A model generated the notes under the pieces. That model was not told the DNA's origin, did no database searches, and was given only the letters and a program-made list of their open reading frames with translations. The translations under genes were made by a program, and so were the position numbers. A DNA stretch of 64,000 nt from Magnetococcales bacterium (GTDB lineage Bacteria > Pseudomonadota > Magnetococcia > Magnetococcales > Magnetaquicoccaceae), in assembly GCA_015231755.1 (NCBI GenBank), contig JADGAZ010000006.1, positions 62,001 to 126,000 on the forward strand, written 5' to 3'. Positions 23,546 to 52,900 of this stretch are shown one piece after another; within the stretch, counting starts at the first letter, position 1; the number at the start of each line of letters is the position of its first letter.

Positions 23546-23564
23546 TTATCGGGAAGACGTGTCC

Positions 23565-24002
23565 ATGTCAGATCACCGACGGAGTCGCATGCCGGAGCAA
23601 TTTCGATTGGGGTGTCCTTCCATCGACACCCAGCACGAGTTGATCTTTGCCATGTATCATGAACTGCTTCGCTCGCAACAGCAGGGCGAGGACAGCTATG
23701 AACTCGAATTCGTTTTTCTCTCCCTCAACAGTTATGCGGGCACCCATTTCAGGCATGAAGAGGATTTCATGCGTGCCTGCGGGTTTCCCGGCACGGAATT
23801 TCATATCCGTGAACACCGCAGTCTGGCCCTGCAGGTAGGTCAGTTGCGGGGTCGGTTTGTTCTGGCCGGTTCCCAGGAGGAAAAACGGGCCATCGCCGGG
23901 GAAGTGGCGGTTTTTTTGCTCGGCTGGTTGGAACATCATATCGCCGAAGTGGATCGGGAGTTGTGTGAATACCTGCTTGAACAGGGAATCGACACGCCTT
24001 GA
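23565..24002 (+). CDS. Bacteriohemerythrin-like protein
   Basis: About 145 residues. Di-iron hemerythrin ligands are all present in order: CPSIDTQHELIF (His), THFRHEEDFM (His and Glu), FHIREHRSL (His-x3-His), and WLEHHIAEVDRE (His and Asp). It would bind O2 reversibly in the cytoplasm. ATG at 23565 is taken; a GTG two codons earlier is possible. It stands alone between icd and an unknown gene. Oxygen carrier or sensor roles are family possibilities. Confidence 0.88.
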   Translation: MSDHRRSRMPEQFRLGCPSIDTQHELIFAMYHELLRSQQQGEDSYELEFVFLSLNSYAGTHFRHEEDFMRACGFPGTEFHIREHRSLALQVGQLRGRFVLAGSQEEKRAIAGEVAVFLLGWLEHHIAEVDRELCEYLLEQGIDTP

Positions 24003-31756: not shown

Positions 31757-31885
31757 TAAGTTGATCGACCGGATATTGTGATGGCATGGATCTTTGTAGT
31801 AATGATATCAGGGTATGCGGTTGGTTCGCGTCGCAGGATGTTGTCTCCTTGTGTGCAATGAATGGGACTGAAGGGGGTGAACCGC

Positions 31886-33448
31886 ATGGCCGTGACTTCA
31901 AGGCTGAAACATTCCATTGGCATCCGGTTGTTGCTGGTGGCCGGCATTGCGGGAACCGGGAGTCTGCTCGGGATGGGGGGGATCGCGCTCCATCGGATGC
32001 AGGCGGGCATCGTCGAGCAATCCGAGCAGAACGTGCGACAACTGACCGAAACCGCATTGCGGGGAATCGAGTCCATCATGCTGGGGGGCAATTCGGATGT
32101 GGCCCGTCGTTACGCCGAAAGCCTCAAGGGGGTGAAAGGAGTCGATCTCTTCCAGGTGCTGCGGCTGGATGCGCAGGAAGCCTTCCGTGCGGAGAATGGC
32201 GCCAGTCCGAACGAGAATGGTTATGTTGGGTTTACCCATTTTGATTCCGGAAAGGTTAGTCCGGAGTTTGCCAAGGCGGTGGAAGGGCAGCAGCCGGTTT
32301 CTGTGTTGAGTCAGGGGGAGGATGGCTTCACGCGGGTGAATTATTGGGTGCCCCTGATCAACAAACCCGAGTGTCACGCCTGTCACGGTCCAGACCACCA
32401 GGTGCGGGGTGTGTTGCATCTGACCCTCTCCTTAAGCGAATCGGAAGCCCGGATTCATCGGGTGCGGGGGGAACTCGGAATGGCGCTGGTGGCGTTTTTG
32501 GCGTTGTTCTTGTGGTCCTCCTGGGAGATTTTCAAGCGGCTGGTGACCCGTCCTTTGTCCCGGATGCGGGGGGTGATCGAAGTGATCGCCGCCGGGGATC
32601 TGCGTCCCCGCCTGAGCGTCGCCCCGGGGGCGCGGGATGAGGTGTCGGAGATCGGGCGCCATGTCAACACCATGGCCGACAACCTGGAGGAGACTATTTT
32701 GACGGTTCAGGAGCAATCCCGGACCTTGTCGTCGGGGATCGGGTCGTTTCTGAAGGTGCGGGAGGAGTTGGAACAGGGAACCGGGCAGACTACATCGGTT
32801 TCCGAGGAGGTCGCCCGCTTCATGCAGGTCATCATCGGCGGCATCTGGGAGAGTGTGGAACGCTCCAAATCCGCCGAGCAGGTGGCCCGACAGGCCGCCG
32901 GTCGGGCGGTGGAGGGGGGTGAGACCGTGCGCGAGGCCATTGCCGCCATGGCCGAAGTGGCGGAGAAGACCGGCATCATTCAAGAGATTGCCCGTCAGAC
33001 CAATCTGCTGGCCCTCAATGCCGCCATTGAGGCGGCCCGGGCCGGGGATGTGGGTCGAGGCTTCGCCGTGGTGGCGGGAGAGGTGCGCAAACTGGCGGAA
33101 CGCAGTCGGGACGCCGCCGAAGAGATCGGTCAGATCACCGCCAGCACCCTGGCCACGGCCAAACGGGTGGGGGATGTACTGGAGGAGTTGGTGCCCTGGA
33201 TCACCCGTACCGCCGAGGAAGTGCGACGGATCGATCAGCTGTCCGGCAATCAAAACGACAGCGCGCGACGGATCTCCGAGGCGGTGAGCCGATTGGATCG
33301 GGTAGTGCGGGATAGCGTATTCACCTCGGGACGGGTGAGCGATATCGCCCAGGAGTTGCGGGTCGCTTCCGACCGGTTGGAACACTCCATCGCGGTTTTC
33401 AAGTTGCAGGAAGGTCGTTCGGTCCCCGCCGGCAACCCGGAGGCGTGA
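31886..33448 (+). CDS. Methyl-accepting chemotaxis protein with periplasmic c-type haem motif
   Basis: 520 residues. TM1 about 12-34, periplasmic sensor 35-196, TM2 about 197-213, a HAMP-like segment ([19 protein letters not shown]), then a cytoplasmic signalling domain with the conserved hairpin tip ([37 protein letters not shown]). The sensor carries C163-H-A-C166-H167, a CxxCH covalent haem-attachment motif, just before TM2 (PECHACHG). Haem binding would make it a redox, O2 or NO sensor. ATG at 31886 follows GGGGGTG. It converges on a second receptor with the same motif. The signalling domain seems short of the usual C-terminal methylation helix length. Confidence 0.92.
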
Positions 33449-33508: not shown

Positions 33509-36346
33509 TCAGACGGGCTTCTTTTTGGATTCCATATGGTTGCGGTAGGCCATGTCCGATCCCTGGATGTGGTGGATAAGCCAGTTGCGCAGGAATTGCA
33601 ACACATCGCTGGACAGGGCAAAGGGATCGTCGAGCAGTTTTTGCTGATAGATCACCACCTGATCGCAAAACTGGCGATGTTCCTCCTTGTGGGCCTCTTG
33701 TCCGGGAAAGCCAATGGACTCCAGGTACCGTTCCTCGCGGGCAAAGTGGGTACGGGTGTAGTTGAGCAGATTTTCCACGATCTGGTTGAGCAGAGACTGC
33801 CCCTTGCCCAACTGCACCGCGGCGTGGAGTTCGTTGATCAGGCTGATGAGTTGCCGGTGGTCCGCATCCAACGGGGGTACGTTGACCGCCATTTTTTCCG
33901 TCCAGGTGATCAACGGACGGTAGGCGCCCACACTCTCCCGGCCCAGATAAATCTGATCGAGTTGCTCGAAAAAGGTGTGCTGTAACGCGCAGAAAAAGCG
34001 CATGGCATCGGCGGCGGCCTGTTCGTTGCGTTGTGCGCCGAGTCGCTGGATCACCTCGTCGCAGGTCTGATGGATCTGCTGGTGGGTCTCTTTCATGCGC
34101 TGGAACACCGGGCGTGCGCCGAGTTCCGCTTCGGCGGTCCGTTCCCAGGCGCATACCGCGCACAAGGCGTTGACATCGGTGACCGTTAAAGGAACGTCTC
34201 CATGGGTGGCCTGCTCCAGGCGGCCCAGCAGGTGGAGAATGGATTCTTTCAGTTTGCGGATGTCGAACAGTTCGGGACCGATATCCAAGGAGGATTGGGC
34301 GGCGTAAAGCGCGTCGCTGATGTTGCTGGCCACATCCCCCAGGGCGTGGAAATGGTTGACCGTGCCATGCAAACGCCCCACGGCTTTCAAGGCGTCCTGC
34401 ATGCTGCGACGCACGGTATCGGAGGCGGCTTCCGTGGTGGTGAAGGAGGAGAGCACGGTCCGGACAAACTGAAGCGCTGCGTCCGACTGTTCCGCCATGC
34501 CGCTCGCCGAACCCGCCACCACGGAACTGGTGGTGGCAATCTCCGCCGTGCCCAGGGCCGCTTCGGAGGCGGAACGGGCCACCTGCTGGGCGGCGTTGTT
34601 CAGGGTGTCGGCATTCTGGGTCACCATGGTGGTGGCCGCTGTCACCTCCGACATGGCTTCCGCGATCCCCTGGATCATCACATGCTGTTCGTCTACCGCG
34701 TGCAGGATTTCGCTGTTGGCCGCGTTGATTTTTTCCACGATCACCGTGATCTCTTTGACCCGTTCCACCACGTTGGCGGTTCCGGATTGGATGTCTTCGA
34801 TCTTGAGAGAGATCTGATGGGTGGCGCGACCGGTTTGCAAAGCCAGTTCCTTGACCTCGTTGGCGACCACGGCAAACCCTTTGCCCGCTTCGCCGGCCCC
34901 GGCGGCTTCGATGGCGGCGTTCAAGGCGAGCATGTTGGTCTGTTCCGCGATGGCCTGGATCATCTCCACCACGTTGCCGATCTCGCTGGCCGAATTGGAA
35001 AGGTCATCCACCGCCGAGAAGGCCTCCAGGGCGTAATCGTGGGCCTGGCGGGAGTCGTGATTGGCGTTTTCGCAGCGTTGACCCACCCCGGCCAGGGAAG
35101 TGGTCATCTCTTGAATGGAACTGGCCACACGGGTCACGGAGTGGCTGACCTGACTCAGGCTGTGATTCACTTCGTTGAGGTTGGTGGTCATCTCTTCGGC
35201 GGCCATGGCCATGGTGGTGACGTTTTGACTGGCATGGTCGGCATTGCGGGCGGTTCCCTGGATGCCATTGGCCACGCTTTCCGCTTCCGTGGCGATGGCG
35301 GAAATGTTGTCCAGGGATTGATTCAACAGTTGCATCATGTGGTGGATTTCGGCAGCCAAGCGGTCATTTTCATCCGCCACCCCCCCGGAGAGCTTTTGAA
35401 TCCCCGAGGCGTCGGCGCCAATGGCGGCGCGCAGTTTCAGGACTTCCCGGATGAAGGCGGTAATGCTGCCGGATTGCAGGTTGATCATGCGGATCGTCTC
35501 GATGAGTTTTTCTTTGAGCCGATTCACATTGACCGCGATGGCGGTGATTTCGTCGTCGCCGGGAGTGGCGATGCGACTGGTCAGGTTGCCGTTGGCCACC
35601 TCTTCGATGGCGGAGCTGATGGATTGCAACGGCGCTCTCAGCGACCGGGCCAGGAAAGCCCCCAGCAACACCAGAAACAGTCCCACCGCGCCAATGATGC
35701 CCAGAATGGCCTGGGTGCGTGCCTGGGCGATTTCTTGTTCCATGGCGTTCAGGGAGACGGTCAACTGGAATACCCCCCGCACTTCATGATCCCCCCCGTG
35801 GCAGGCGTGACAACGGGTATGGTTGAGTAGAGGCATCAACAGGGTACGCTGGTTGCCGTTTTCCCCGATCTCGATGAAAGAGGCGGGTTTTTTCTCCTGG
35901 ATCGCCTGCTTGAAGGCGTCAAGAATGGCGCCTTTGGCCTCGAAGCCCGGTTCTCCTTCGGGATGAAAGGCCTCGCGACCGTAGCGATTCAGAATGCGAA
36001 ATTCGAGCAGTCCGGGGACTTTTTTGAGGTTGTCGGAATAGTTGCGTGCAATATCCGCATAGCCGGCCAGCATGATGGTCTGCAATCCCTGACCCGCCTG
36101 TTCCGCCAGTTTGAGGATGCTGTCTTCGTTTTGTTGCAGCAGATTTTTTTCCATCCCGTGGATCAGGAATCCACCCAGGATGGACAGGCTGAGGATTCCA
36201 ATCACCCCCACCACAGCCAGAATGCGGAAACTGACCGTGCGGAAGGCCTGGATGCGGCGAATGGATCGGATGATGCGGGAAAGTCTCGGAATGGTGTGCT
36301 CCGAATGCGTTTTTTGGTCCTGGCCAACGAAACGATTGTGCAACAT
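33509..36346 (-). CDS. Chemoreceptor with periplasmic CxxCH haem motif, CZB-like domain and C-terminal hemerythrin domain
   Basis: 945 residues. TM1 about 42-63; periplasmic sensor with C179-H-A-C182-H183; TM2 about 213-233; HAMP-like; a long coiled-coil region and MCP signalling tip ([38 protein letters not shown]). About 695-765 resembles a CZB zinc domain ([20 protein letters not shown]). The last ~130 residues are hemerythrin: [35 protein letters not shown]. The design suggests haem sensing outside and di-iron O2 sensing inside, coupled to chemotaxis. ATG at 36346 follows GAGGT. The two receptors share similar sensor modules ([17 protein letters not shown] versus [16 protein letters not shown]) and probably arose by duplication. 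Confidence 0.92.
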
Positions 36347-36407
36347 TGGTCGTTTACCTCAACGTCGGATCTGTCAGATGAACCGTATAATCTTCATGAT
36401 TATGAAA

Positions 36408-36817: not shown

Positions 36818-37354
36818 ATGCAAAAATTTCAAGTGCGCAGTTCCTGTGCTGTTGCCGCGGCTTTCACGTTAGGTCTGTGTGGGATCTCGCCGACTTTGGT
36901 GGATGCCGCTCCTGATGCCGCCGCCCCGGCTGCTGCTGCCCCGGCTGCTGCTGCCCCGGCTGCTGCTGCCCCGGCTGCTGCCGCCCCGGCTGCTGCCGCC
37001 CCGGCTGCTGCCGCCCCGGCTGCCGCTGCCTCGGCCGCTGCTGCCCCGGCCGCTGCTGCCCCGGCTGTTGTCGGCAGTTATGATGTGTCCGGTGTCAGTG
37101 CTGTGGACAAGTCCAATTTTGAAGGTGTCGCCCTCGTCACCAAGAAAGGTGAGGCTTATCAGGTCAAGTACGAGGACTCTGAAGGCAAGTATACTGGTAT
37201 CGCTTTTATGACCGGCAATACGCTGGGTATCGCCTATTCCGGTGAGAACAAGCCCACCATTTGTCTGATGGAGCCGGATGGAACGGGCTGGAAGGGCCAA
37301 TGCATTGAACAAAGCGAAACGTTCCTCAGCAAAGAGAGCTGGAAACGTCGCTGA
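36818..37354 (+). CDS. Exported protein with Ala4-Pro repeat stalk and small C-terminal domain
   Basis: 178 residues. Signal peptide (MQKFQVRSSC to LVDA), then about ten AAAAP units (residues 33-83, one with Ser for Pro), then a ~95-residue domain (SYDVSGVSAVDKSNFEGVALVTKKGEAYQVKYED...) that looks like an all-beta fold. The Ala/Pro part should be an extended stalk, as in TonB-like or wall-spanning linkers. The C-terminal domain resembles periplasmic proteins of unknown function in which KxGxxYxVxY strands recur. GAGGAG precedes the ATG. Own promoter and terminator; monocistronic. Function unknown. Confidence 0.8.
   Translation: MQKFQVRSSCAVAAAFTLGLCGISPTLVDAAPDAAAPAAAAPAAAAPAAAAPAAAAPAAAAPAAAAPAAAASAAAAPAAAAPAVVGSYDVSGVSAVDKSNFEGVALVTKKGEAYQVKYEDSEGKYTGIAFMTGNTLGIAYSGENKPTICLMEPDGTGWKGQCIEQSETFLSKESWKRR
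36914..37066 (+). repeat. 15-bp tandem repeat encoding AAAAP
   Basis: About ten near-identical 15-base units (GCTGCTGCCCCGGCT-like, varying only in third positions). Such repeats change copy number by slippage, so stalk length may vary between strains. Confidence 0.9.
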
Positions 37355-37371
37355 TCGGGTCTTTTGGGGGT

Positions 37372-37456
37372 CGTTATCGTGGTTTGACCACACCACGATA
37401 ACGGTCTGATGGTCATGAAACCTGGAGCTGTCTTGAATGGCGGCTTCAGGTTTTTT
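37372..37456 (+). terminator. Two hairpins after the Ala/Pro-repeat gene
   Basis: The first hairpin pairs CGTTATCGTGG with CCACGATAACG (37372-37403). The second pairs AAACCTG (37418-37424) with CAGGTTT (37447-37453) and runs into TTTTTT, a weak intrinsic terminator with a long loop. Confidence 0.55.
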
Positions 37457-37489
37457 ATTGGATGGGGTCTGATCCGGAACTGTCGAAAC

Positions 37490-37513
37490 AAAAACGACCA
37501 CCCGAAGGTGGCC
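37490..37513 (-). terminator. Terminator downstream of tRNA-Lys
   Basis: On the minus strand GGCCACC and GGTGGTC form a stem (one G-U pair) around TTCGG, followed by a T-run (complement of the A-run at 37490-37494). It is located just 3' of the tRNA. Confidence 0.6.
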
Positions 37514-37536
37514 GTCCATGTTTCGTTTTTTTTGAT

Positions 37537-37612
<76 letters not shown>

Positions 37613-37819
37613 GTACTGGGTGTCAATCGATTTCATAAAAATGCCATTTCCTGGTCTGGGAGTCAAGCAAAAAATGCGGGTGGTCTCGCAGCAAAAAAGT
37701 GTGCGGTCCCCTTGACGTGGGGTGGATGGGGTGTGTAATCGATGGCCAGGATCGTTTGAAAACGTTTTTGCCGATTCGTTCTCCGCTTCTCTTCCCCCGG
37801 GTGAAAAGGGGTCTTTTCG

Positions 37820-39589
37820 ATGATGTGGCAGGCATGGTTGTCGTTGGGTGTGATTTTGGTTTGTGTGCTGCTTTTGGCCAGAAATCGTCATTCGGCGGAT
37901 GCGGTGTTGCTCGGGGGGGTGACCTTGCTGCTGTTGTTTGGTGTGCTGACCCCCAAACAGGCCTTGGCCGGCTTGGCCAATGAAGGCATGGTCACGGTCG
38001 GAGTGCTGTATGTGGTGGTCGCGGGATTGGAGGAGACCGGTGCCGTGCGCTGGATCTCCGATACCATCCTGGGACAACCCCGTTCCCTGCGTCATGCCCT
38101 CTGGCGCATCGCTTTGCCTATCCTGGTGATTTCGCCCTTTCTCAACAATACCCCGGTGGTGGCCATGTTCATTCCGGCCATTGGCGCCTGGGCGGCCCGC
38201 CATCGGCTCCCCATGTCCGGATTGATGATGCCATTGGCCTTTCTGACCTCCGCCGCCGGACTCTGTACCCTGGTGGGATCCAGCACCAATCTGGTTGTGC
38301 ACGGTTTGTTGCTTGCGCCTTCCGGGGGGCGGGGGTTTTCCTTGTGGGAACTGGCGGCCATCGGTCTGCCGGTGACGGCAACGGTGCTGGGGTATGTCCT
38401 GATCACCGGCAATCGCTTTTTGCCTGCGCGGCATACGGTCTCCGAATCCTTTGCCAATGTCCGGGAATACACCGTCGAAATGGTGGTGCAACCCGGTGGG
38501 CCTCTGGAAGGCAAATCCATCCGCGAGGCGGGCCTCAGACAGTTGCCGGGTCTGTTTCTGGTGGAAATCCGCCGGACCCGGGAAGTGCTGCCCGCGGTCT
38601 CTTCCCACCAGATTCTCCACGGGGGGGATCGATTGCTGTTCACCGGCGTGGTGGATTCCGTGGCCCATTTGCGCGCCATGCGGGGCCTGCTGCCCGCCAC
38701 GGATCAGGTGTTCAAACTCGATGCCCCGGCCCGGGAACGGGTCATGGCCGAGGCGGTGGTCTCCGACTCCTGTCCTTTGGTGGGGCGTACCGTGCGGGAT
38801 GGACGGTTTCGCACCCTTTATAACGCCGCCATCCTGGCCGTGGGCCGCAATGGAGAAAAATTGCCCGGTAAAATCGGAGATATCACCCTGCGCCCCGGGG
38901 ATCAGTTGTTGTTGGAGGCGCATCCCTCCTTTCTCGACCAGTATCGTTTGACCCGGGATTTTCTCCTGGTGCGCAATGTGGAACATTTTCATCCGGTGCG
39001 CCATCAGCGGGCACCGGTGGCTTTGGGGATTTTATTCGGTTTTGTCGCCATGGCCACCCTGGGAGGGCTTGCCACGCTGGAGGCGGCACTTTTGTCCGCC
39101 GGTCTGATGTTGCTGACCGGTTGTGTCACCAGCGGTGAGGCGCGTCGGGCGGTCGAATGGCAGGTGCTGCTGGTGATCGCCGCTTCCTTCAGTCTGGGTA
39201 TCGCCCTGGAAACCAGTGGCGCGGCCCGTTTTCTGGCCACCCGGCTGATTCAATTCATGGACCAGGATCCCTGGACTTCGTTGGCTGCGGTCTATCTGGT
39301 CACCGCGCTTTTGACCCAGATCGTCACCAACAACGCCACCGCTGTATTGATGTTCCCTATCGCCATGGCTACAGCCAGGGATTTGAATGTCTCGGTCATG
39401 CCCTTTGCCGTCGTGGTGCTGGTGGCGGCCTCTTCCGCTTTTGTCACGCCGATTGGTTATCAGGTCAATTTGATGGTGCAAGGGGCGGGAGGTTATCGTT
39501 TTATGGACTATATGCGTTATGGTTGGCCGCTTTTCTTTTTGGTTGGAATCGTTACCGTGACTTTGACTCCCTGGATCTGGCCTTTTTGA
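37820..39589 (+). CDS. SLC13/SAC1-like anion:Na+ symporter with two TrkA-C domains
   Basis: 589 residues. N-terminal membrane half (several helices up to about residue 200, with SPFLNNTPVVAMFIP and TLVGSSTNLVVHG), a cytoplasmic insert of two TrkA-C (RCK-C) domains (about 210-375; LEGKSIREAG, LVGRTVRDG, LRPGDQLLLEA), then a membrane C-terminal half (TQIVTNNATAVLMFPIA, TPIGYQVNLMV). The paired re-entrant N-N-x-A/T motifs are typical of divalent-anion symporters such as SAC1/SdcS-like sulfate transporters. Substrate (sulfate or another dicarboxylate-like anion) is inferred only. Confidence 0.87.
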   Translation: MMWQAWLSLGVILVCVLLLARNRHSADAVLLGGVTLLLLFGVLTPKQALAGLANEGMVTVGVLYVVVAGLEETGAVRWISDTILGQPRSLRHALWRIALPILVISPFLNNTPVVAMFIPAIGAWAARHRLPMSGLMMPLAFLTSAAGLCTLVGSSTNLVVHGLLLAPSGGRGFSLWELAAIGLPVTATVLGYVLITGNRFLPARHTVSESFANVREYTVEMVVQPGGPLEGKSIREAGLRQLPGLFLVEIRRTREVLPAVSSHQILHGGDRLLFTGVVDSVAHLRAMRGLLPATDQVFKLDAPARERVMAEAVVSDSCPLVGRTVRDGRFRTLYNAAILAVGRNGEKLPGKIGDITLRPGDQLLLEAHPSFLDQYRLTRDFLLVRNVEHFHPVRHQRAPVALGILFGFVAMATLGGLATLEAALLSAGLMLLTGCVTSGEARRAVEWQVLLVIAASFSLGIALETSGAARFLATRLIQFMDQDPWTSLAAVYLVTALLTQIVTNNATAVLMFPIAMATARDLNVSVMPFAVVVLVAASSAFVTPIGYQVNLMVQGAGGYRFMDYMRYGWPLFFLVGIVTVTLTPWIWPF

Positions 39590-40082: not shown

Positions 40083-43000
40083 ATGATCGGTGCGAATCAA
40101 GGTCCGTCGGGTTCGATGTCAGCCGCGAGGCGTGTTTTCATGGTATGGAGCCTCTTGGTCTGGGGGCTTTTTTTGGGCCCCGGGTCCGGATGGGCTGCGG
40201 ATCCGGCTCCGGTCCAGTCCAAGGATGGGGTGACCGAAGCCCTGCAACAGGCGGTCGAGGCCGAAGCGAAACGGGATGCGTCGGCTTGGGAGCGTTTCTT
40301 GAAGGCGGCCCGCTTGGCAGCCGAGGCCAAGCGTCAGAAGGAACTCGCCACCAGCAATGAAGCCATTTTGCGGCTGCGTGAGGCTCTTCCGGAGCGGTTC
40401 AACGCAAAGATGGCGACCGTGACCGCATTGTCTGCGGAAAAATCGGCCTCTGCGGGGGCTTGGTCCGCCTTGAACCAGGAAGCCGCCGCGTTGATGGCGC
40501 GCGGGGATGCGGCTGGAGCCTTGGCCCGGGGGGGCAAGGCTTTGGAAATGGCCAAAACCGAATTCGGTCCCAAGCATTTCACGGTATTGGTGGCGTTGCG
40601 GGAGCAGGCTTTGTTGCACTATCAGGCCGGGGCGGTTCCCGAGGCGGAGGCGGGACTGGCCAAGGCTTATGCTTTGGGCGTGGAGATTCTGGGGGCGGAC
40701 CATCCTGAAACCCTGAAAGTGCAAGCCTTGCAGGCGGATCTGGCGGAAGCCGGGGGGGGCTTGGCCAAGGCGGTCGAGATCCGCAAGGCGGTGCTGGCGG
40801 CATGGGAGGGGGCTGTGGGGGCCGATCATCCCGTCGCTCTGGACGCGGGCATGACTCTGGCGCGACTGCTGGTGAATTCGGGCAATCTGGATCCGGCGCT
40901 CCAGTGGCTGGAGGCCGCCCGTCCCCGTTTCGACAAGAGTCTGGGATCCTGGCATCCCCGTCTGGCGGAGTGTCTGACCCTGACCGCCGCGGTCGTCGGG
41001 CGCAAGGGGGATATCAAAGGGGCGTTGGCCTTGTACGAGCAGGCGGACGGGATTCACCGGGTCGCCTTGCCGGCTGGAACGCCGGCGGTGCTGACCGCCC
41101 GGGTGGAGGCGGCGGAGTGGATTCGTCGGGATGGCCGTTTCGACGAGGCCCGAAAGATTCTGGAGGAGGTCATGGGCCTCGCCAAGAAGGATGCCGCATC
41201 TCAACCGTTGCTGGTCCAACCGCTGCTGGATGCCCAGGGGGCGTTGGTGCAGGTGTTCGAGGATCAGGGGGAATACGACAAGGCGGAGCCTTTGATTCAG
41301 GAGGTGTTGAAGGGCGAACAGGCCATGCTGGGCGCGGATCATCCCAATCTTCTGGCCACCCGGAATCGTTTGGCGGGGATTTATCGCCGTCAGGGCAAAC
41401 TGGCGGAGGCGGAAAAGCTTTACGCTCAGGTTCTCGACGGGTATCGCAAGGTGCTGGGCACCGAGCATCAGGCCTCGATCAACCTGATGAACAATCTGGG
41501 TCTGGTGTATGAGAACGAAGGTCTTTACGACGAGGCCGAGCCTTTGTTGCGTGCCGCCTTGCAAAGTTCCCGCAAGCTTTCCGGGGAGGATCATCCCGAA
41601 ACCCTGGCCACGTTGAACAATCTGGCTTTGTTGCACGAAAGCCAGGGCAATTTCGACAAGGCGGAGCCGTTGTATCAAAACGCCATCGCCATATCGACCC
41701 GCAAACTGGGGGAGAAGCATCCGGACGCTTTGGCGTTCGTGAACAATCTCGCCTATCTGTATCTGTTGCAGCAGAACTACAAGGAAGCGGCACCTTTGTT
41801 TGAAAAGGTGCTGGCCCATTGGACCATCATTCATGGGGAGTCCCATCAAAAGACCCTCAAGGCCATGAACAATCTCGCCCGGGTGCGACACAAGCTCGGG
41901 GCGCGGGATGAGGCGGAAAAGCTGTTCAAGAAGGCCCTGGAGTTGCGCAAGTCGGCTTTGGGGGAGCGGCACATGGATGTGTTGCGTTCCATGCGGGATC
42001 TGGGTGCCTTGTATCTGGACATGGGGCGTCTGCCGGAAGCCGAGGAGTTGCTGAAAAAGGCGTTGGAGCTGGATGAACAGGTGTTGGGCAAGCAGCATCC
42101 CTACACCTTTGAAACCCTCAACACCCTGGCGGATGTGCTGGAGGCCAAGAAGGACAAGGCCTCCATCCAGCAGGCCTATGGATTGCGACGGGAAGGGTTC
42201 ACGCGCCGCACGGAGTTTTTGAATCGCATGTTGTGGGCCACCGGGGACAATGCCCGGGAGGGGTATGTGCGGCTGCATCGGGAGGAGTTCAACACCTTCC
42301 TGTCGATGGTGGCCCGTCAGGAGTCGGTTGCCGGGGGGGAGGCGTTGCTGGAGGTGGGTTTGCGGCGCAAGGGATTGCTGCTCAAGATCACCGCCGAGAT
42401 GCGCCAAGTGGTGCAGATGGCCAAGAATCCCCAATTGGAAGTGATCGGGCGTCGTTTGACCACCGCCCGCAAAAAACTGGCCGCCCTGACCCTCTCCGGC
42501 CCGACGCCGGAGACCAAGGAGAACCATCTGCGGGTGTTGCACGAACTCGAAGAGACTGTGGACAAGCTGCAACTGGATCTGGGGCGGGAGAGCAAGCGGT
42601 TCCGCCGGTCCACGGATCCCCTCACCCTGGAAAAAATGGTCCAATACCTCCCGGAAGACGCGGTATTGGTGGATTTTATCACCTATGCGGAGCATGGCAG
42701 AAACCGTCTGGTGGCGGGAACCGTGCGTCGCGAGAAGGGCAAACCGGTCTTTGCCTTGGTCTCTTATCGGACCGACATGGATGAGATCCAAAAGGTCATT
42801 GTGGATTATCGCACCGCCATCCAGGATGAACATCTGGATCCCGAAGATCTGATCAAGGCCGGACAAGAGACCCACGAGGTGGTCTGGGCGCCTCTCAAGG
42901 AGGCGTTGGGGGAGCGCAAGGTGGTGTATGTGGTGCCGGATGGACTGCTGAACATTCTGCCCTTCAATGCCCTGGTGGATGAGGAAGGGGCTTATCTGGC

Positions 43001-43919
43001 CAAGACCCTGGATCTGCACATCCTCACCTCCAGTCGCGATCTGGTGCCTTCGGAGATTCCGGCGGCCCAGGGGGGCTTGATGATTCTGGCGGGTCCGGAT
43101 TACGACTCGGACAAGGTGGTGGATCGTCAGGTGCTTCAGGAGATCGAGGGCAAACGTTCCGCCTCCGGCGAGTTGAAAGAGGGCATGCGGGCCTTTTCCC
43201 AGGGCATGCGCGGGTTGCACTTCGATCCGTTGCCGGGTGCCGAAAAGGAGGGAAAACTGATTCTGGGTCAGGCCGGAGATCCGAAGAAGACGGGTCAATC
43301 CGGGGATCCGAACCAAAACAATCGACTGTTTCTCAAGTTCGATGCCCAGGAGAAGGTGGTGCAATCCATCGACGCTCCTCCGGAAGTGCTGCATATTGCC
43401 ACTCATGGATTTTTTCTCAAAGCCGATGACAGCTTGAGAAAGCGGCTTTTGAAAATGCAGCGCGGTGGCGAGGTCAGCATTCCCCCGCCCGGTGACAATC
43501 CCTTGTTGCGATCTGGTCTTGCTTTTGCAGGCATCAACAGCAACGCCGCCTTCCTTGGAGAGATCGATACCCGCAACGATGGGGTGTTGACAGCTTTGGA
43601 GGTGTTGGGTCTGGATTTGACCGGAACCCGGTTGACCGTGCTGTCCGCGTGCGAAACCGGTCTGGGTGAGATTCACGAAGGCGAAGGGGTCTACGGTTTG
43701 CGTCGTTCCTTCCAGGAAGCGGGTTCGGAATCGGTGATCGCCTCGTTGTGGGAGGTGAGCGACGCAGGTACCCAGGCCTTGATGACCGGCTTGTACAAGC
43801 GTCTGCTGAATGGCAAGACCCCCCACGAATCCTTGCGTGAGGCCCGTTTGGAGTTGATGGATTCTCAGGAGTGGTCTTACCCGTACATCTGGTCTGCATT
43901 CATGCTGGTGGGAAAATAA
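40083..43919 (+). CDS. Exported TPR-CHAT protein (putative caspase-like protease)
   Basis: 1278 residues. A signal peptide (hydrophobic VWSLLVWGLFLGPG, cut near GWAA) predicts export. Residues about 130-720 hold many kinesin-light-chain-type TPRs (repeated pattern EAEPLL...LG.DHP.TL...NNLA.L). A helical linker follows, then a C-terminal CHAT domain (about 920-1278) with the His/Cys pair of clan CD peptidases: H1108 in HIATHGFF and C1190 in LSACETGLG. The domain should therefore be catalytically competent. CHAT proteins relate to caspases and separase; TPRs usually choose the partner. It ends 16 bases before the giant FecR-RTX gene, implying that the two act together. A start at 40119 is possible, but 40083 has GGAGAG behind it. 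Confidence 0.88.
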   Translation: MIGANQGPSGSMSAARRVFMVWSLLVWGLFLGPGSGWAADPAPVQSKDGVTEALQQAVEAEAKRDASAWERFLKAARLAAEAKRQKELATSNEAILRLREALPERFNAKMATVTALSAEKSASAGAWSALNQEAAALMARGDAAGALARGGKALEMAKTEFGPKHFTVLVALREQALLHYQAGAVPEAEAGLAKAYALGVEILGADHPETLKVQALQADLAEAGGGLAKAVEIRKAVLAAWEGAVGADHPVALDAGMTLARLLVNSGNLDPALQWLEAARPRFDKSLGSWHPRLAECLTLTAAVVGRKGDIKGALALYEQADGIHRVALPAGTPAVLTARVEAAEWIRRDGRFDEARKILEEVMGLAKKDAASQPLLVQPLLDAQGALVQVFEDQGEYDKAEPLIQEVLKGEQAMLGADHPNLLATRNRLAGIYRRQGKLAEAEKLYAQVLDGYRKVLGTEHQASINLMNNLGLVYENEGLYDEAEPLLRAALQSSRKLSGEDHPETLATLNNLALLHESQGNFDKAEPLYQNAIAISTRKLGEKHPDALAFVNNLAYLYLLQQNYKEAAPLFEKVLAHWTIIHGESHQKTLKAMNNLARVRHKLGARDEAEKLFKKALELRKSALGERHMDVLRSMRDLGALYLDMGRLPEAEELLKKALELDEQVLGKQHPYTFETLNTLADVLEAKKDKASIQQAYGLRREGFTRRTEFLNRMLWATGDNAREGYVRLHREEFNTFLSMVARQESVAGGEALLEVGLRRKGLLLKITAEMRQVVQMAKNPQLEVIGRRLTTARKKLAALTLSGPTPETKENHLRVLHELEETVDKLQLDLGRESKRFRRSTDPLTLEKMVQYLPEDAVLVDFITYAEHGRNRLVAGTVRREKGKPVFALVSYRTDMDEIQKVIVDYRTAIQDEHLDPEDLIKAGQETHEVVWAPLKEALGERKVVYVVPDGLLNILPFNALVDEEGAYLAKTLDLHILTSSRDLVPSEIPAAQGGLMILAGPDYDSDKVVDRQVLQEIEGKRSASGELKEGMRAFSQGMRGLHFDPLPGAEKEGKLILGQAGDPKKTGQSGDPNQNNRLFLKFDAQEKVVQSIDAPPEVLHIATHGFFLKADDSLRKRLLKMQRGGEVSIPPPGDNPLLRSGLAFAGINSNAAFLGEIDTRNDGVLTALEVLGLDLTGTRLTVLSACETGLGEIHEGEGVYGLRRSFQEAGSESVIASLWEVSDAGTQALMTGLYKRLLNGKTPHESLREARLELMDSQEWSYPYIWSAFMLVGK

Positions 43920-43935
43920 GAAGGAGTCGTCCGTC

Positions 43936-46900
43936 ATGGCCAAGCGCATTGAACTTACCCCGTTTCGTCCCCTGAATATCGATTCGCAGGTGCTGGATCG
44001 TGCCCACGAGGGGTCACGGATCGTGGTTCCGGGCGACGACATGATGTTGCGGGCCGAGTTTCAGCGGCAGGGTGCGGATTTGATGCTGCGGGGCACCGGA
44101 GAGCACGCCGGTCAATCGGTGGTGATCCCTGGATACTTCTCGTTGACCACGCCGCCGGATCTTCTGACCTCCGCCGGAGCGCGCATCACCGGGGATCTGG
44201 CGACGCGTCTGGCCGGACCGCTGGTGCCAGGGGTCTACGCCGAAGCCGCCGCCTCTCCCGGGCAGACGGGAATCGGCACCGTGGATTCGGTGAAGGGTGA
44301 AGCCGTTGTGATTCGTTCCGGGGTGCAGATCCCCATCACCCAGGGCATGGCCTTGCTGGAAGGGGATATTGTCCAGACCGGCGCCAAAGGAAGCGTGGGT
44401 CTGATCTACGCCGACAAGTCCACGGTGGCCTTGGGAGACAATGGCCGTCTGGTGATCGAGTCCATGCAGTTCGATCCGGCTGCCGGAACCGGCAAATCCT
44501 CCACCAATGTGGTGCAGGGTGTGTTCACCTTCACCAGCGGCGCCGTGGCCAAGCTGGGTCCGAATAACATGGTCTTCAAGACCCCGGTGGCCGAAATCGG
44601 CATCCGGGGTACCACCGTGGCGGGGCAGGCTCAGGCCGAGGGCAAGGAAAACACCATCACCTTGCTGCAAGACGCGGATGGTGGCGTGGGTCAGATTTCG
44701 GTCACCAACTCGGCGGGCACCCAGGTGCTCAGTCAGATCAACCAGACCACGACGGTCAAGAGTTATTCCGCGCCGCCGGCCCAGCCGTACATCATGCCGG
44801 CCTCCCAGATCGCGCAACGCTACGGTTCCGCCACCCAGTCGTTGCCGCCCCCCCAGGTCATTCCCACCACGACGAAGAGCGACGACAAGCGTGCCGGTGA
44901 GGCCGCCGCCGACAAGAAAGACGGGGAAGGTAAAAAAGACGGCGAAGGCAAAAAAGACGGCGAAGGCCAGAAAGAAGGGGAAGGCAAAAAAGACGGCGAG
45001 GGCCAGAAAGAAGGGGAAGGCAAAAAAGACGGCGAGGGCAAGAAGGAAGGCGAGGGCGACGGGAAAAAGGACGGAGAAGGCAAGAAAGAGGGCGAAGGCG
45101 ACGGCAAAAAGGACGGCGAGCTTCCCAAAGACGGCGAACACAAGGGTGACGCCAAGGTCGGGACTGAAGGGGCCACAAAGGATGGTTCGGGTTTGACGGG
45201 TGGAGATCCGCAGCATGCGGGTGATCCGGTGAATCTCGGAGCCGGAGATCCGGGAATGCACCCGGGAGCCGAGTCTCAGAAAACCGGGTCCCAGGGGGCT
45301 GAAGCGACTCCTCCCGCGCAGGCTCCCATGTTCACACCGGTGATCAATACGTCTGCGGTGGTTCCCGGAACCACGCTTCCCGTTCCCGGTACGGGAACGA
45401 CCCTTGGTGGGACCCCTGGGGCGACTTCGGGTGGGACTTCGGGTGGAGGAACGGCGCTGGAAACGATTCAGACTGCAATCAACAACAGTCTGGCGGCGGG
45501 CCAGAATGCGGTCCAGTCTCCCACCGGGGTTCAACAGTCCACGCCTCCTGCCACTCCGATCATCCCGGTTGTGACCAATCCACAAACCCAGACCCCAACC
45601 CAGACGGGCGAGGCCCGCTCCTTCAAGGTCGCGGACGATTATATCGTGGGTGCGCGGGTCTATATCGATGTCAATAAAGATGGGGTCGCCCAGGAAAATG
45701 AATTTGTCGGCACCACGGGTTCGGGTGGAACGATCAGCTTTACCAGCAGCCTGCAAGGCAACATCATCGCCGTCGGCGGGGTGAACGAACAGACCGGCAT
45801 TTCAAATACCATGGTTCTGCGTGCCGCCAGTGGTTCTTCGATCGTCAATCCGTTGACCACGCTGGTGCAGGAACTGTCGGAGCAGCAACCGCAGGGTTCC
45901 GAGCCGACGTTGGCCGAGAATACGGTCAAGACCATGCTGGGTCTGCCCAACAGCGTCAATCTTTCCACTTTCGATCCCCTGTCCACCCCCTCGGACGCCA
46001 ATGCGGTCACGGTGCAAAAGGCGATTGCCCAGATCGTGACCCTTGCCATCTCCTCCACCTCTTCCGATGCGGCGGTGGATGCCTTGACGACGGCCATTTC
46101 CAATTCCACCGGAGCAGATCCCATCGATCTGGCGAGTGAAGCGGTCCTCACCGAGATTTTTCCCACCACCGTGCTGACATCCGCCGTGCTGCCCCAGGTT
46201 TTGGTGGCGATCAATACCATCAAGAACGCCACCAGCATGAGTGATCTGTCCGATCACGATCCCACCGGATCGGTGGTGATCAGTGGGAGTGCCACCCAGG
46301 GTCAAACCCTGAGCGTGTCCAACACCCTTGAGGATGCCGATGGCTTGGGAACCGTGTCTTATCGGTGGCTGGCCGATGGCGTGGCCATTGCGGGGGAGAC
46401 AGGCAGCACCCTGAAGTTGACCCAGTCCCAGGTGAACAAGGTGATCACGGCCCAGGCGGTTTACACCGATGCCCGTGGCCAATCCGAAAGCGTCACCAGC
46501 GATGGGACCGGTCAGGTCGCCAATGTCAATGATGACCCCACCGGCAAACCGATCATCTCCGGTACGGCCCAGTTGGATCAGACCCTGACGGTCAACACGG
46601 CGTCGCTGGCCGACGTGGATGGCCTCGGGAGCTTGCACTATCAATGGTATGCCGGTGATCAGGCCATCTCCGGGGCGACCTCTTCTTCTCTGGTGCTCAC
46701 CGAAACCACGGTGGGCAAGGTGGTCACCGTGCAGGTGAGCTACACCGACCTCCAGGGTACTTCCGAAAGTCTTACTTCGTCCGGCACCGACGCGGTGGTG
46801 GATCCCAACAACCATGCTCCCACCGGAAGCGTCACGATCAGTGGCACACCGGTCGAAGACGGCACCCTGACAGTCGCCAATACCCTGGCGGATTCGGATG

Positions 46901-49900
46901 GCCTGGGCACCATCACCTATCAATGGATGGCCAATGGCAGCAGCATCCTGGGGGCCACAGGGGACTCCCTGCTTTTGACCCAATCCCACGTGGGAAAAGT
47001 GATCACGGTAAAGGCGCTTTATACCGACGAGAACGGCTTTCCCGAAAGCGTCACCAGTGCGGCCACCGGCACTGTGGCCAACATCAACGACGCCCCCACC
47101 GGTGAACCGGTGATCGTCGGCACCGCCACCCAGGGTCACACCTTGAGCGTGAACCATGCGGCGATTGCGGACCCGGATGGTCTGGGGGTGTTGAACTATC
47201 AGTGGTACGCGGGCGGGGAGGCGGTCTCTGGCGCGACGGGAAGTTCCCTGCTTTTGACCCAGAGTCAGGTGGGGAAGGTGATGACCGTGGAGGTGCGTTA
47301 CACCGACCTCCAGGGTACCGCGGAGAGTCTGATTTCCGCTGGATCTGCCACGGTCGCCGATGCCAACGACGCGCCCACCGGAAGCGTCGTGATCCTGGGG
47401 GCCACCGGTTCCGGCTCTCAATATGCGTCCGCGGTGCATGATTTCAGTTCCCAGTGGTCCACGGGCAGTTGGTCGGCCAGTCAGGTGCTGGGGGCGCCGA
47501 ACACTTTCGGTTACGGGGACATCTCCACCTCATGGGCGCCTTCTCCGAGCAACGCGGGCATCGAACATGTCACCGTTTTGTTCGATACCCCGGTGCATGC
47601 CACCGGAGCCACCATCCGTGAGACCTACGGCAATGGTTTTGTCACCCGGATCGACGCGATGGATCTGGAGGGGGTGCTGCACACCGTGTGGAATGGCGTG
47701 GATCCGAGTCAGCCGGGGCAACCGGTGGATTTCCAGGCCAACTGGAGTGCCACCGAGTTTTTGGTGAAAGGACTCAAGGTTTATGTCGATACCGCCCACA
47801 ACAGTTCAGCCTGGGAGGAGATCGACGCGATCCAGTTGCACAGCGGTGATCGCATCGCCGAAGGCCAGACCCTGAACGCCACCCATACGCTGGCGGATCT
47901 GGATGGCATCGATACCTCAACCCTGGCGTATCAATGGCTGGCCAACGGGAATCCGATTGACGGGGCCACGGGAGAGACCTTGCTGCTGTCGGCTGCCGAG
48001 GTGGGCAAGGTGATCCAGGTGAAGGTGAGCTATACCGATGGCGCCGGCAACCTGGAGCATGTCACCAGCGATCCCACCAGCATGGTCGCCGATGTCAACG
48101 ATCCCCCCACCGCCACCGGGATGGATACCGCCGAATCCCTCAACGAAGGCGCGCCGGCTTTCAGCCTGCACGATATCGTGGTCACCGATGCGGATCCCGG
48201 TGAGATCATCACCGTCACCTTGACCCTTTCCAACGCTCAGGCCGGTGACTTGAGCACCGCCACTGCCGGAACTTCGACCTCCCACTTCGATGGCACCACC
48301 TGGAGCGCCACCGGTTCGGTGGAGGATGTCAATGTGCTGCTTTCCGGGGTGAATTTCATCCCCGATGCCAACTGGGCCCAGGATTTTTCCATCTCCACCA
48401 TGGTGACGGATGATTTTGTGATCCTCAACGGCACCAAGAGTGTCACGGTCACCCCGGTCAACGACGCCCCGACCGTCGCCAATCTGAACGCGGTGGTGGG
48501 CATTACCCCGGAGACTGCGGTTTACGATCTGCCCAACCTGATCATCCAGGATGTGGACAGTTCCCAGGTGACCGCCACCCTGACCCTGCCCCAGGGCGTA
48601 GGGGGAACCTTGTCCACGGGAACCTCCAACGGGGTGACTTCGACCTTCAGTGGCTCGATCTGGAGCGCCAGTGGCGCGATAGCGGATGTCAATACCCTGC
48701 TGGCCGGGGTGACTTTTACTCCGGGAACGGGACTGACCCAGACCGTTCAGATCGCCGTTTCGGTGAGCGATGGGGTGGCCGAGGCCGTGACCGGCTTTCT
48801 GGGGTTGAGAACCATTCTGCAAGGTACCTATGGCAATGACACCCTCACGGCTCCCAACGCCGATGGCTGGGTGATCCAGGGGCTGGATGGCAACGACACC
48901 CTCACCGGCGGCGGTGGGGCGGATACCCTGGATGGCGGATCGGGGGATGACCTTCTCGACGGTGCCGCCGGCGCGGATATCCTGAAAGGTGGCAATGGCA
49001 ACGACCTGTTTGTGATCGGCCCGGCCCCGGGTGGCCCGGAGCTTTCCAAAGCGGACGTGATCCAGGATTTCAGTCCCCAATCGGACCGGATCGGTCTGAA
49101 CGGCACCTTGACGTACAGCGATCTCTCCCTGACCCAGGGTGACGGGGTCAACGCCGGGGATACCCTCGTGCGTTTGGCCAGCGGTGGGGATATCCTGGCC
49201 ATTTTGCAAGGAGTCACCGCCACCGATCTCAATGCCCTGCATTTCATTCGCATGACCCAAACCCCTCTGACCGTGATCGGCACCTCGGGTGACGATTTGC
49301 TCACCGGCGGCATGGGCAACGACACCTTCGACGGATTCGGGGGCAACGACTCCCTGCACGCCGCTGGTGGGAACGACCTGATCCGGGTGAGCGACAAGAG
49401 CGGGGCGTTTCTGGATCACATCAATGGCGGGGGCGGCTTCGATACCCTGTCGGTTCAGTATGCGGGCATGACGGATCTGAACAGTTTCGTTTCCCGCAGT
49501 TTCACCAACGGAACCCATCTGTGGACCGATGCCAATGGGGGGGCCATCTCGTTCAAGAACATCGAGGCGGTGCAGGTGGGAGAGCATACCTATCAGATCG
49601 GTCAGACCGCTCCGAACAATTCCATGAGTTCCATCGGCTCTTCTGGATACTTCCTGTATTCGACGGAGACCAACCAAGCGATCCTGTATGATGGCGGACT
49701 GTCCTACAACGCGTTCAACGCGCCGCTCTTTTTCCCAGGTTCTCCGGTTTCCACCACCATTATCGGCACGTCGGATGATGATCTGATCCGTGGCACCACC
49801 GGCGCGGATACGATCACCACCGGGGCAGGGCGGGATTTCGTCAGACCGGGTCCGGGTGCGGATACCGTGCGGCTGGAAGGGGACAACGATGTGTTGTTCC

Positions 49901-52900
49901 TGGAAGGAACTTCCTGGAACGATACCCTGCTGGATGGCGGCGATGGGGCGGACTGGCTCCACTTCGGTTACAATGGCCAGTATTCGGGCGTCACTTTTTC
50001 GTTGGCCGATGCCACGGCGCTGCACTTCGAGAATCTTTTCGGCTCCGAGTCCGGCGATACCCTGACCGGTGATGCCAACGACAATGAAATCCGTGGGGCT
50101 GCGGGTTCGGATTACCTGATGGGTGGCGCGGGTAACGATACGTTGTATGGGGATCAAGGTCCCACGTCCGAGTACTGGAACGATTATATCTATTATTACA
50201 ATCTGACCTACTGGAGCTATGGCGCCTCCGGAGATGACGTGCTCAATGGCGGCAAGGGCTCGGATATCTTGGCCGGCGGCGGTGGGCAGGACACTTTTGT
50301 GCTGGATGCCAGCGTGGTGGGTCAGGCCGGTGGCAAATTCGTCATCGATGGCAGCGATACCATCACCGATTTTGATGTCACTCAAGATGTGATCGATCTG
50401 GCGGGTGTGCTGACCGGTTTGGGCTATACGGGCACCACGCCCTTTACTGCCGGTTGGCTCAAATTAGAGCAGGTGGACACCAATGCGGTCATCCGGGTGG
50501 ATGTGAGTGGTCTGGGAACCGATTATTCCACCACTCTGCTCACCTTGAACAACGTCACCACCAGCGATGCATCCAGCAGAATCTTGTTGGGGGTCGCCAA
50601 CAAGGTGATGAACGGAGATCAGTCCGCCAATACGTTGCAAGGCGGTCTCGGTGACGACACCCTCTCCGGTCTGGGGGGTAACGACACCCTGTCCGGTGAT
50701 TACGGCAACGATCAACTCCTGGGCGGTGCGGGCAATGATGCCTTGTCCGGCAACACCGGGAATGATTCTCTGTATGGCGGAGATGGATCGGATTCTCTGT
50801 ATGGCGGATCGGGCAACGATCTGCTGGATGGCGGCTCGGATGGCAGCACGGACTATCTGTCTGGCGGGGAGGGTGACGACCTGTTGATCGGTCAGGGAAC
50901 CCTCTCGGGAGAAGGGGGCAACGACAGCCTGAGGGGCAGTGGCTGGCTGCATGGCGGCGCAGGCGACGATTTCGTGTTGGGTGGCGATGGCTCCGATACC
51001 CTGATTGGCGGGGCCGGTTCGGATACGTTGAACGGTGGATTGGGCAACGATACGTTTGTCATGGATTCGTCGTCGTTGCGCGTCGAGTACGGGTACAATC
51101 AGGAATCGGTCTGGAACGAGACCGTCACGGTGGATGGCGTCGACCGCATCGAGGATTTCTCCGCGGGAGATACCCTGGATCTGAGTGGTCTGCTCAGTGC
51201 CGTTGGTTATTCCGGCAACAATCCCTTCGGGGATGGTTGGCTGACGGCTGTGCAGGTCGGCACCGATACCGAAATCCGGATGGATCTGACAGGAACCGGC
51301 AAGAATTTTTCCTCCACTGTGGTTGTGCTGAGTCATGTCACCCCGCTGGATCTGGTGACTGGCCTGCTGCCCGGTGGGCCAGTGGTCACCGTGGTTTTGC
51401 AAGGGGATGCGGCTGCCAACATCCTGAAGGGTGGTGTTGGGGATGATACGATTGCCGGTGCGGGTGGTGATGACCAGATCACGGGTGGCGCCGGCAACGA
51501 TCTGTTGTCCGGGGATTCCGGCAATGACACGCTGTACGGCAATAACGGCAACGACACCCTGAACGGCGGTTACGGCCAGGATTCCCTGTATGGCGGTGCG
51601 GGGAACGATATCCTGGAAGGAGGGGATGTCGGTTATGGCTATAATTACTATTATGGCTATTACAATGGAGACTCCCTGTATGGCGAGGCGGGTGATGACA
51701 CCCTGACCGGTTATGGTTCTCTTTCCGGTGGAGACGGTCGGGATATCCTGAATGGCTCCGGGTATTTGTCCGGTGGCGCCGGGGATGACACCCTGACCGG
51801 AAATGGATCGCTGTATGGTGATGACGGGAACGATATTCTGGTGGCCTCCGATGGGGACGACAGCTTGAACGGTGGAGCCGGTTCGGACACCCTCACCGGC
51901 GGTGAGGGGACCGATACCTTTATCCTGGATTGGAACAGCATGGTTTATGACTATGCCCTCTCCAAGTATGTGGTCAGCGGCAGCGACACGATTACCGATT
52001 TTACCGTGGGTGACCGGCTGGATGTGACCGGGATCCTGAATCACGCGGGCTACAATGGTTCCAATCCTTTTGCCGACGGGTGGTTGCGGGCCGAGCAGGA
52101 GGGCAGCGACTTGGTGATCCTCCTGGACCCCAAGGGAACCGGTCTTGATTTCACGACCAGGCTGGTGACGTTGAAAAACGTGACCGTCCAGGATCTGCTG
52201 CTCAACATGTTGCCGGGTGGACCGATCCTCAACATGAATCTGACCGGGGACGCGGGTGCCAATACCCTGACCAGCGGCAGCGGCAGTGATACCCTGGCGG
52301 GCCTGTCGGGGGATGACAACCTGACGGCCGGGTCCGGTGACGATACCCTCATCGGGGGATCGGGCAATGACACGCTGCATGGCGATGCGGGCAATGATCA
52401 ACTGTCGGGTGGATATGGTTCGGATTATCTGTATGGCGGTGCGGGCAACGATACCCTGGATGGTGGCGGATTTGGATACAATTCCTATTATGGTTATGGG
52501 GATCAACTGTATGGGGAAGATGGGGACGATACCCTGACCGGTTACGGTACGTTGTCGGGGGGGGCGGGCAATGACACTCTGAACGGCATTGGCACCTTGT
52601 ATGGTGGAGACGGCAACGACACCCTGACCGGCAATGGTTCCCTGTACGGAGAAGCCGGTGATGATACCCTGATCGCCAGCGGCGGGGATGATACCCTCAA
52701 CGGCGGAGCCGGTTCCGACACCCTGACCGGTGGTGATGGTTCGGATACCTTCGTGATGGATTGGGGGACGGCTACTTATGATTACACGTTGTCCAAATAC
52801 GTGGTCAGCGGGAGTGATACCATTACCGATTTCACCCTGGGCGACCGGTTGAATCTGTCGGGTGTGTTGAATCAGTTGGGTTATTACGGTTCCAATCCCT

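Follow-up and report, generated by a model that had tools for sequence, protein, structure and literature searches.

A Magnetococcales chemoreceptor joining a predicted periplasmic haem-c Cache sensor to a remodelled CZB-like domain and a C-terminal hemerythrin

One gene in a 64,000-nucleotide stretch of Magnetococcales DNA (the window) encodes a chemoreceptor which carries, in a single polypeptide, a periplasmic CxxCH motif (residues 179-183), an MCP signalling domain, a homologue of the CZB domain and a C-terminal hemerythrin domain with all of its ligands. This architecture, already outlined in a preliminary description of the sequence, was borne out by domain profiles, membrane topology and an alignment to the hemerythrin structure 2avk. 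By origin the protein is a chimera, composed of a haem-c Cache-type sensor and a Magnetococcales receptor type with CZB-derived and hemerythrin domains behind the MCP (CZB-Hr receptors). With a rough probability of 0.55 we read it as a receptor weighing redox state or NO outside the cell against O2 inside; PMC13370339 is counted among the literature support for this model. The term “three-sensor” is used throughout the text. We are aware of the fact that it should better be worded as “three potential sensors”.

In the mechanism we infer, a receptor dimer would operate inside a chemosensory array. Ligation of the periplasmic haem (His183/Met92) would shift with its redox state or with NO binding, and this outside signal would pass via the second transmembrane segment to HAMP. 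The cytoplasmic di-iron hemerythrin at the chain end would bind O2 or be oxidised by it, while the CZB-derived helical bundle, located between signalling hairpin and hemerythrin, would couple the latter to the kinase-controlling tip. A rebuilt Cys2His2 site in this bundle (C729, C732, H755, H759) might bind zinc or serve as a thiol switch. Weighing outside redox/NO against inside O2 would guide the cell to the oxic-anoxic boundary. The features are as follows.

33509-36346, minus strand: whole receptor gene, intact open reading frame, 945 aa including stop
36356-36360, minus strand: Shine-Dalgarno-like GAGGT, 9 bases upstream of the ATG
36149-36247, minus strand: transmembrane segment 1, residues 34-66 (hydropathy; helix in the model)
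35717-36157, minus strand: predicted periplasmic sCache_heme sensor, residues 64-210 (PF21563, PDB profile matches, model and Foldseek)
36071-36073, minus strand: Met92, expected to ligate the haem distally, as Met60 does in GSU0935 (alignment to 3b42)
35798-35812, minus strand: CHACH, residues 179-183, CxxCH haem-c attachment motif (sequence; conserved in the class)
35633-35722, minus strand: transmembrane segment 2, residues 209-238 (hydropathy)
35504-35656, minus strand: HAMP domain, residues 231-281 (PF00672, 45 bits)
34577-35068, minus strand: MCP signalling domain core, residues 427-590 (PF00015, 110.8 bits)
34052-34267, minus strand: remodelled CZB-like domain, residues 694-765 (canonical-CZB HMM, hhalign, alignments)
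34151-34162, minus strand: CxxC, with Cys729 (the CZB zinc Cys) and Cys732 (new, at the usual Gly position; alignments)
34070-34084, minus strand: HxxxH, with His755 and His759, the remaining pair of conserved zinc-ligand His in CZB (alignments)
33533-33913, minus strand: hemerythrin domain, residues 812-938, with all seven ligands to iron (NF033749, 2avk, Foldseek)
31862-33448, plus strand: convergent neighbour, a 528-aa MCP that carries a haem sensor of the same kind (domain matches)

The receptor gene is real and under purifying selection. Its relatives, the named ones being Magnetococcales MAGs, span 91% to about 30% identity, and since the whole architecture recurs in them, a pseudogene or a chance open reading frame was ruled out. 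Compared with the 91% orthologue, dN/dS was 0.13 overall and 0.07 for each of the haem and hemerythrin domains. Promoter and terminator scans yielded nothing exceeding shuffles. At the MCP tip the receptor has a Gly (Ser in genome G016) at the position of an Arg in the 528-aa neighbour MCP (AARAGD). This change is common to CZB-type receptors of the class (loci L063, L082, L068, L067), which is why a trait specific to the three-sensor receptor was rejected; it may be the mark of a separate signalling class.

The N-terminal sensor is, judged from its sequence and model, a single-haem-c Cache domain of the Geobacter GSU0582/GSU0935 type, with a predicted haem. Pfam PF21563 matched residues 89-200 with 28.2 bits (cut-off 27), and the CHACH motif is periplasmic by topology, as it is flanked by the hydrophobic segments 34-66 and 209-238. 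The sensor was combined with relatives from named MAGs of Magnetococcales into a profile, which retrieved from the PDB two periplasmic haem sensors of Geobacter, 3b47 (E 3.8e-9) and 3b42 (E 6.1e-7), followed by an unrelated helicase at E 0.05. The same two structures were the top Foldseek matches of the AlphaFold sensor model (pLDDT 84), and Tll0287 (5b82) was also recovered. In a residue-by-residue alignment to 3b42, Met60 of GSU0935 fell on Met92 of the receptor. Both the distal Met and the CxxCH were invariant in the sensors of the class (59/59 each). The host genome encodes CcmE for haem-c maturation and attachment, which is compatible with a covalent haem on the predicted sensor and is supportive only.

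At the other end of the chain, the hemerythrin domain scored 47 bits with Pfam Hemerythrin (PF01814) and 132 bits with the NCBIfam bacteriohemerythrin model NF033749. Its ligand set H-HxxxE-HxxxH-HxxxxD is complete (H830, H867, E871, H886, H890, H926, D931), all seven residues align with the DcrH hemerythrin 2avk (E 4.7e-18), and the model shows the four-helix fold (Foldseek to 2avk, TM 0.86 on target). As the DcrH hemerythrin binds O2 with a Kd of 0.3 uM (PMC9388753), this domain is by analogy the firmest O2-sensor candidate in the receptor. Among the three-sensor relatives, the hemerythrin ligands are reduced to 5/7 in genome G008 (G008:C7, L070) and to 0/7 in G016 (G016:C100, L071), while haem motif and CxxC/HxxxH persist in both. 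The loss of ligands in two of the eight proteins indicates that this receptor type can do without the O2 arm. Across the class, the hemerythrin HxxxH starts with Gln instead of His in 10 of 56 CZB-Hr receptors (e.g. L063, L124), possibly giving an altered iron site.

Between signalling hairpin and hemerythrin, the segment 694-765 was found homologous to canonical CZB at the level of profiles. Pfam CZB (PF13682) scored 14.7 bits (E 0.04), below its cut-off of 29.4. An HMM trained on nothing but 26 canonical class CZBs gave 39 bits on the receptor, where 200 shuffles reached no more than 5.7; with the relatives (37-47 bits) included, shuffles stayed at 8 or below. The hhalign comparison of the segment to canonical CZB reached 99.4%. 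An unrelated helical linker was rejected on these scores. A PDB search with the segment by itself gave no match, and Foldseek of the tail model, which is only moderately confident (pLDDT 78, pTM 0.47), matched hemerythrin and no CZB structure; the homology consequently rests on profiles. The “CZB-like” label of the preliminary description holds for this homology, whereas the canonical 3His/1Cys zinc site is not conserved. Taking H..C-x-x-G-x-W..HxxxH as reference motif, the first zinc His is an Ile, the Cys and the HxxxH are kept, two residues are deleted directly ahead of the zinc Cys, and Cys732 replaces the Gly that the Cys motif has at position 4. According to Perkins 2021 (PMC8262984), position 4 is almost always Gly, as a side chain there would clash with the residue three before the Cys. 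The deletion lies in the stretch where this clash would occur, and a link between the two changes is therefore conceivable.

The four residues of CxxC and HxxxH stay unchanged throughout the eight three-sensor proteins, even at about 30% identity, and within alignment columns 28-65 nothing but the two Cys is invariant. All four are retained in G008 and G016 despite the lost hemerythrin ligands, and the rebuilt site therefore seems to be under a constraint of its own. Between zinc binding and a thiol switch, we lean to zinc.

Of the 48 class genomes, 8 hold the haem-MCP-CZB-hemerythrin build. Besides the window genome these are G030 (91% identity), G028 (67%), G021 and G022 (53%), G008 (33%), G016 (32%) and G031, in which the gene is split by a contig break; G034 holds an N-terminal part ended by the contig end. 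The parts themselves are common, with PF21563 in 45/48 and a CZB-hemerythrin tail on MCPs, usually with a degenerate zinc site, in 47/48 class genomes. A scan of genome contigs with a single peptide pattern from the start of the CZB-like domain yielded seven relatives, all Magnetococcales MAGs, a result with which distant relatives elsewhere remain compatible. Across 399 genomes of the phylum, the matches listed show the full CZB-Hr tail only in class genomes, the listed matches from outside the class covering the hemerythrin part alone. PF21563 is present in 15 genomes outside the class, and none of 14 haem-sensor proteins from there (15 stretches, 12 genomes, haem profile) had a CZB or hemerythrin domain. 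The combination is hence as unusual as had been proposed. Haem sensor, CZB and MCP-hemerythrin are each already known singly, and their combination is rare; together with the rebuilt metal site it looks specific to this bacterial group, as far as the genomes searched indicate. When the cytoplasmic half was placed in a tree, the seven three-sensor proteins usable for it nested among CZB-Hr receptors without a haem sensor (SH-aLRT 99) and apart from haem-MCP-CZB receptors (SH-aLRT 89). From this nesting it follows that the haem sensor was joined to the CZB-Hr receptor type. The haem-domain tree was poorly resolved and too weak to name the sensor donor. In the openly searchable literature no CZB-hemerythrin MCP was found; a 2016 hemerythrin survey names MCP-Hr, HAMP-MCP-Hr and Cache_1 cases (PMC4919030).

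What the outer arm senses decides between the preferred reading and a receptor in which DcrA and DcrH are in effect united in one chain, haem and hemerythrin both sensing O2 in a two-compartment aerotaxis system. The intact, DcrH-like hemerythrin would fit the latter, as would the proposal (PMC8396549; also a title cited in PMC13401364) that the haem-c MCP DcrA is an O2/redox sensor. However, GSU0582 and GSU0935 act as redox-linked Met/water switches which bind NO and CO (PMC8396549), and a HAMP-linked, signalling-type member of the family, named sCache_heme in a 2026 preprint, bound NO tightly, released it slowly like NO sensors and did not form a stable O2 complex (PMC12889525). Due to this behaviour the outer haem arm is, by analogy, better read as a redox/NO than as an O2 sensor. 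O2 sensing by the haem domain, as suggested earlier, is thus not supported, and we consider two-compartment O2 sensing unlikely. NO is a realistic cue for the receptor, since the host genome encodes a cd1 nitrite reductase (506 bits) and the cell thus probably makes NO itself.

Among 56 CZB-Hr receptors of the class, gathered by similarity and including the split G031 protein, 46 are missing one or more canonical zinc ligands, and each of the 56 keeps at least 6/7 hemerythrin ligands. With the zinc site decayed in most of them, a CZB domain can serve as a plain spacer, and the window receptor has lost its first zinc His, too. Only the two ends would then sense, the CZB-derived segment being a helical relic of an ancestral CZB receptor. 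Against this stands the invariance of CxxC and HxxxH in 8/8 three-sensor proteins, including the two with decayed hemerythrin, which makes a mere spacer rather doubtful in our view. CxxC is rare among Magnetococcales MCP-CZB-Hr receptors without a haem sensor: all four canonical zinc ligands are found in 10 of the 56, and two of these ten also have the second Cys, one of them from the window's own genome (C7, locus L040). A rebuilt CZB, in which the helix-1 zinc His was exchanged for a second Cys to give a Cys2His2 zinc or thiol switch within a CZB-hemerythrin tail invented in the class, would allow one chain to integrate haem redox/NO, thiol/zinc and O2; for this tentative extension we put the chances at a little under even. 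Finally, the receptor might be redundant and drifting, an array filler whose combination of domains has no specific use. Class genomes do hold many MCP-like stretches with varying sensor content, and the hemerythrin has decayed in G008 and G016. Yet the low dN/dS, in particular that of the haem and hemerythrin domains, and the retention of the ligands of all sites within the window's bacterial family argue against drift and render this explanation very improbable. We therefore keep the haem-Cache/CZB-Hr reading.

Compared with known systems, the receptor resembles DcrH of Desulfovibrio vulgaris in its order of periplasmic domain, TM-HAMP-MCP and C-terminal hemerythrin, with seven aligned ligands and a fold matching 2avk. 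It differs by the haem-c motif of its outer domain and by the CZB homologue (694-765) between MCP and hemerythrin, as none is described for DcrH (PMC9388753). With GSU0582/GSU0935 of Geobacter sulfurreducens it shares the periplasmic single CxxCH, the distal Met and HAMP-MCP, but these have no hemerythrin or CZB tail in their published description (PMC8396549). DcrA of D. vulgaris is likewise a periplasmic haem-c MCP with proposed redox/O2 sensing; as described in PMC8396549, it has a cytoplasmic PAS domain, and no hemerythrin is mentioned there. The CZB receptors TlpD and McpA as well as DgcZ have the homologous CZB sequence with zinc Cys and HxxxH, whereas the receptor lost the first zinc His, exchanged the position-4 Gly for Cys and lost two residues before the zinc Cys. 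Moreover, a hemerythrin follows its CZB, a partner not listed for CZB by Perkins 2021 (PMC8262984). Closest are the Magnetococcales MCP-CZB-Hr receptors without haem sensor (e.g. G000:C19, 926 aa), which have the same cytoplasmic half at about 36-43% identity and fall in the same clade, but carry other N-terminal regions and mostly a degenerate zinc site.

The host genome (3.84 Mb, 44 contigs) contains 20 hemerythrin domains, 11 CZB matches and four PF21563 matches. It is of magnetotactic type, as indicated by eight magnetochrome domain matches on two contigs. A triple magnetochrome protein lies on the same contig about 22 kb before the window (G000:C6:39828-40184), the remaining matches being on contig C22. 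The receptor is a testable candidate for how magnetotactic cocci find the oxic-anoxic boundary, and it could report on conditions outside as well as inside the cell; its role in magneto-aerotaxis remains inference. For Magnetospirillum, the first such complex of an aerotaxis receptor became known only in 2025 (PMC12442639). The presence of the CZB-hemerythrin tail in nearly every class genome points to a lineage-wide oxygen-sensing design. CxxC/HxxxH, a naturally remodelled CZB metal site, helps to ask if CZB senses via the zinc pool or via thiol oxidation.

Only 60 bases separate the receptor gene from the convergent gene of the 528-aa MCP, in which the domain search found no CZB and no hemerythrin. 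Within the genus, three genomes (that of the window, G030 and G031) preserve the pair, the 528-aa MCP adjoining the C-terminal half of the split receptor gene in G031. Two haem receptors of different build thus travel together. Elsewhere in the window, a single-domain bacteriohemerythrin of 147 aa is encoded at 23559-24002 (plus strand). A small protein without a Pfam match, located at 36818-37354 (plus strand), has a signal-like N terminus and an Ala-Pro repeat of low complexity (AAAPAAAAP). A 1278-aa protein with TPR repeats followed by a CHAT domain is encoded at 40083-43919 (plus strand), and a very long open frame of 4998 aa lies at 43936-58932 (plus strand). Long antisense open frames at 40119-44042 and 36869-39004 (both minus strand) are probably a by-product of high G+C codon use.
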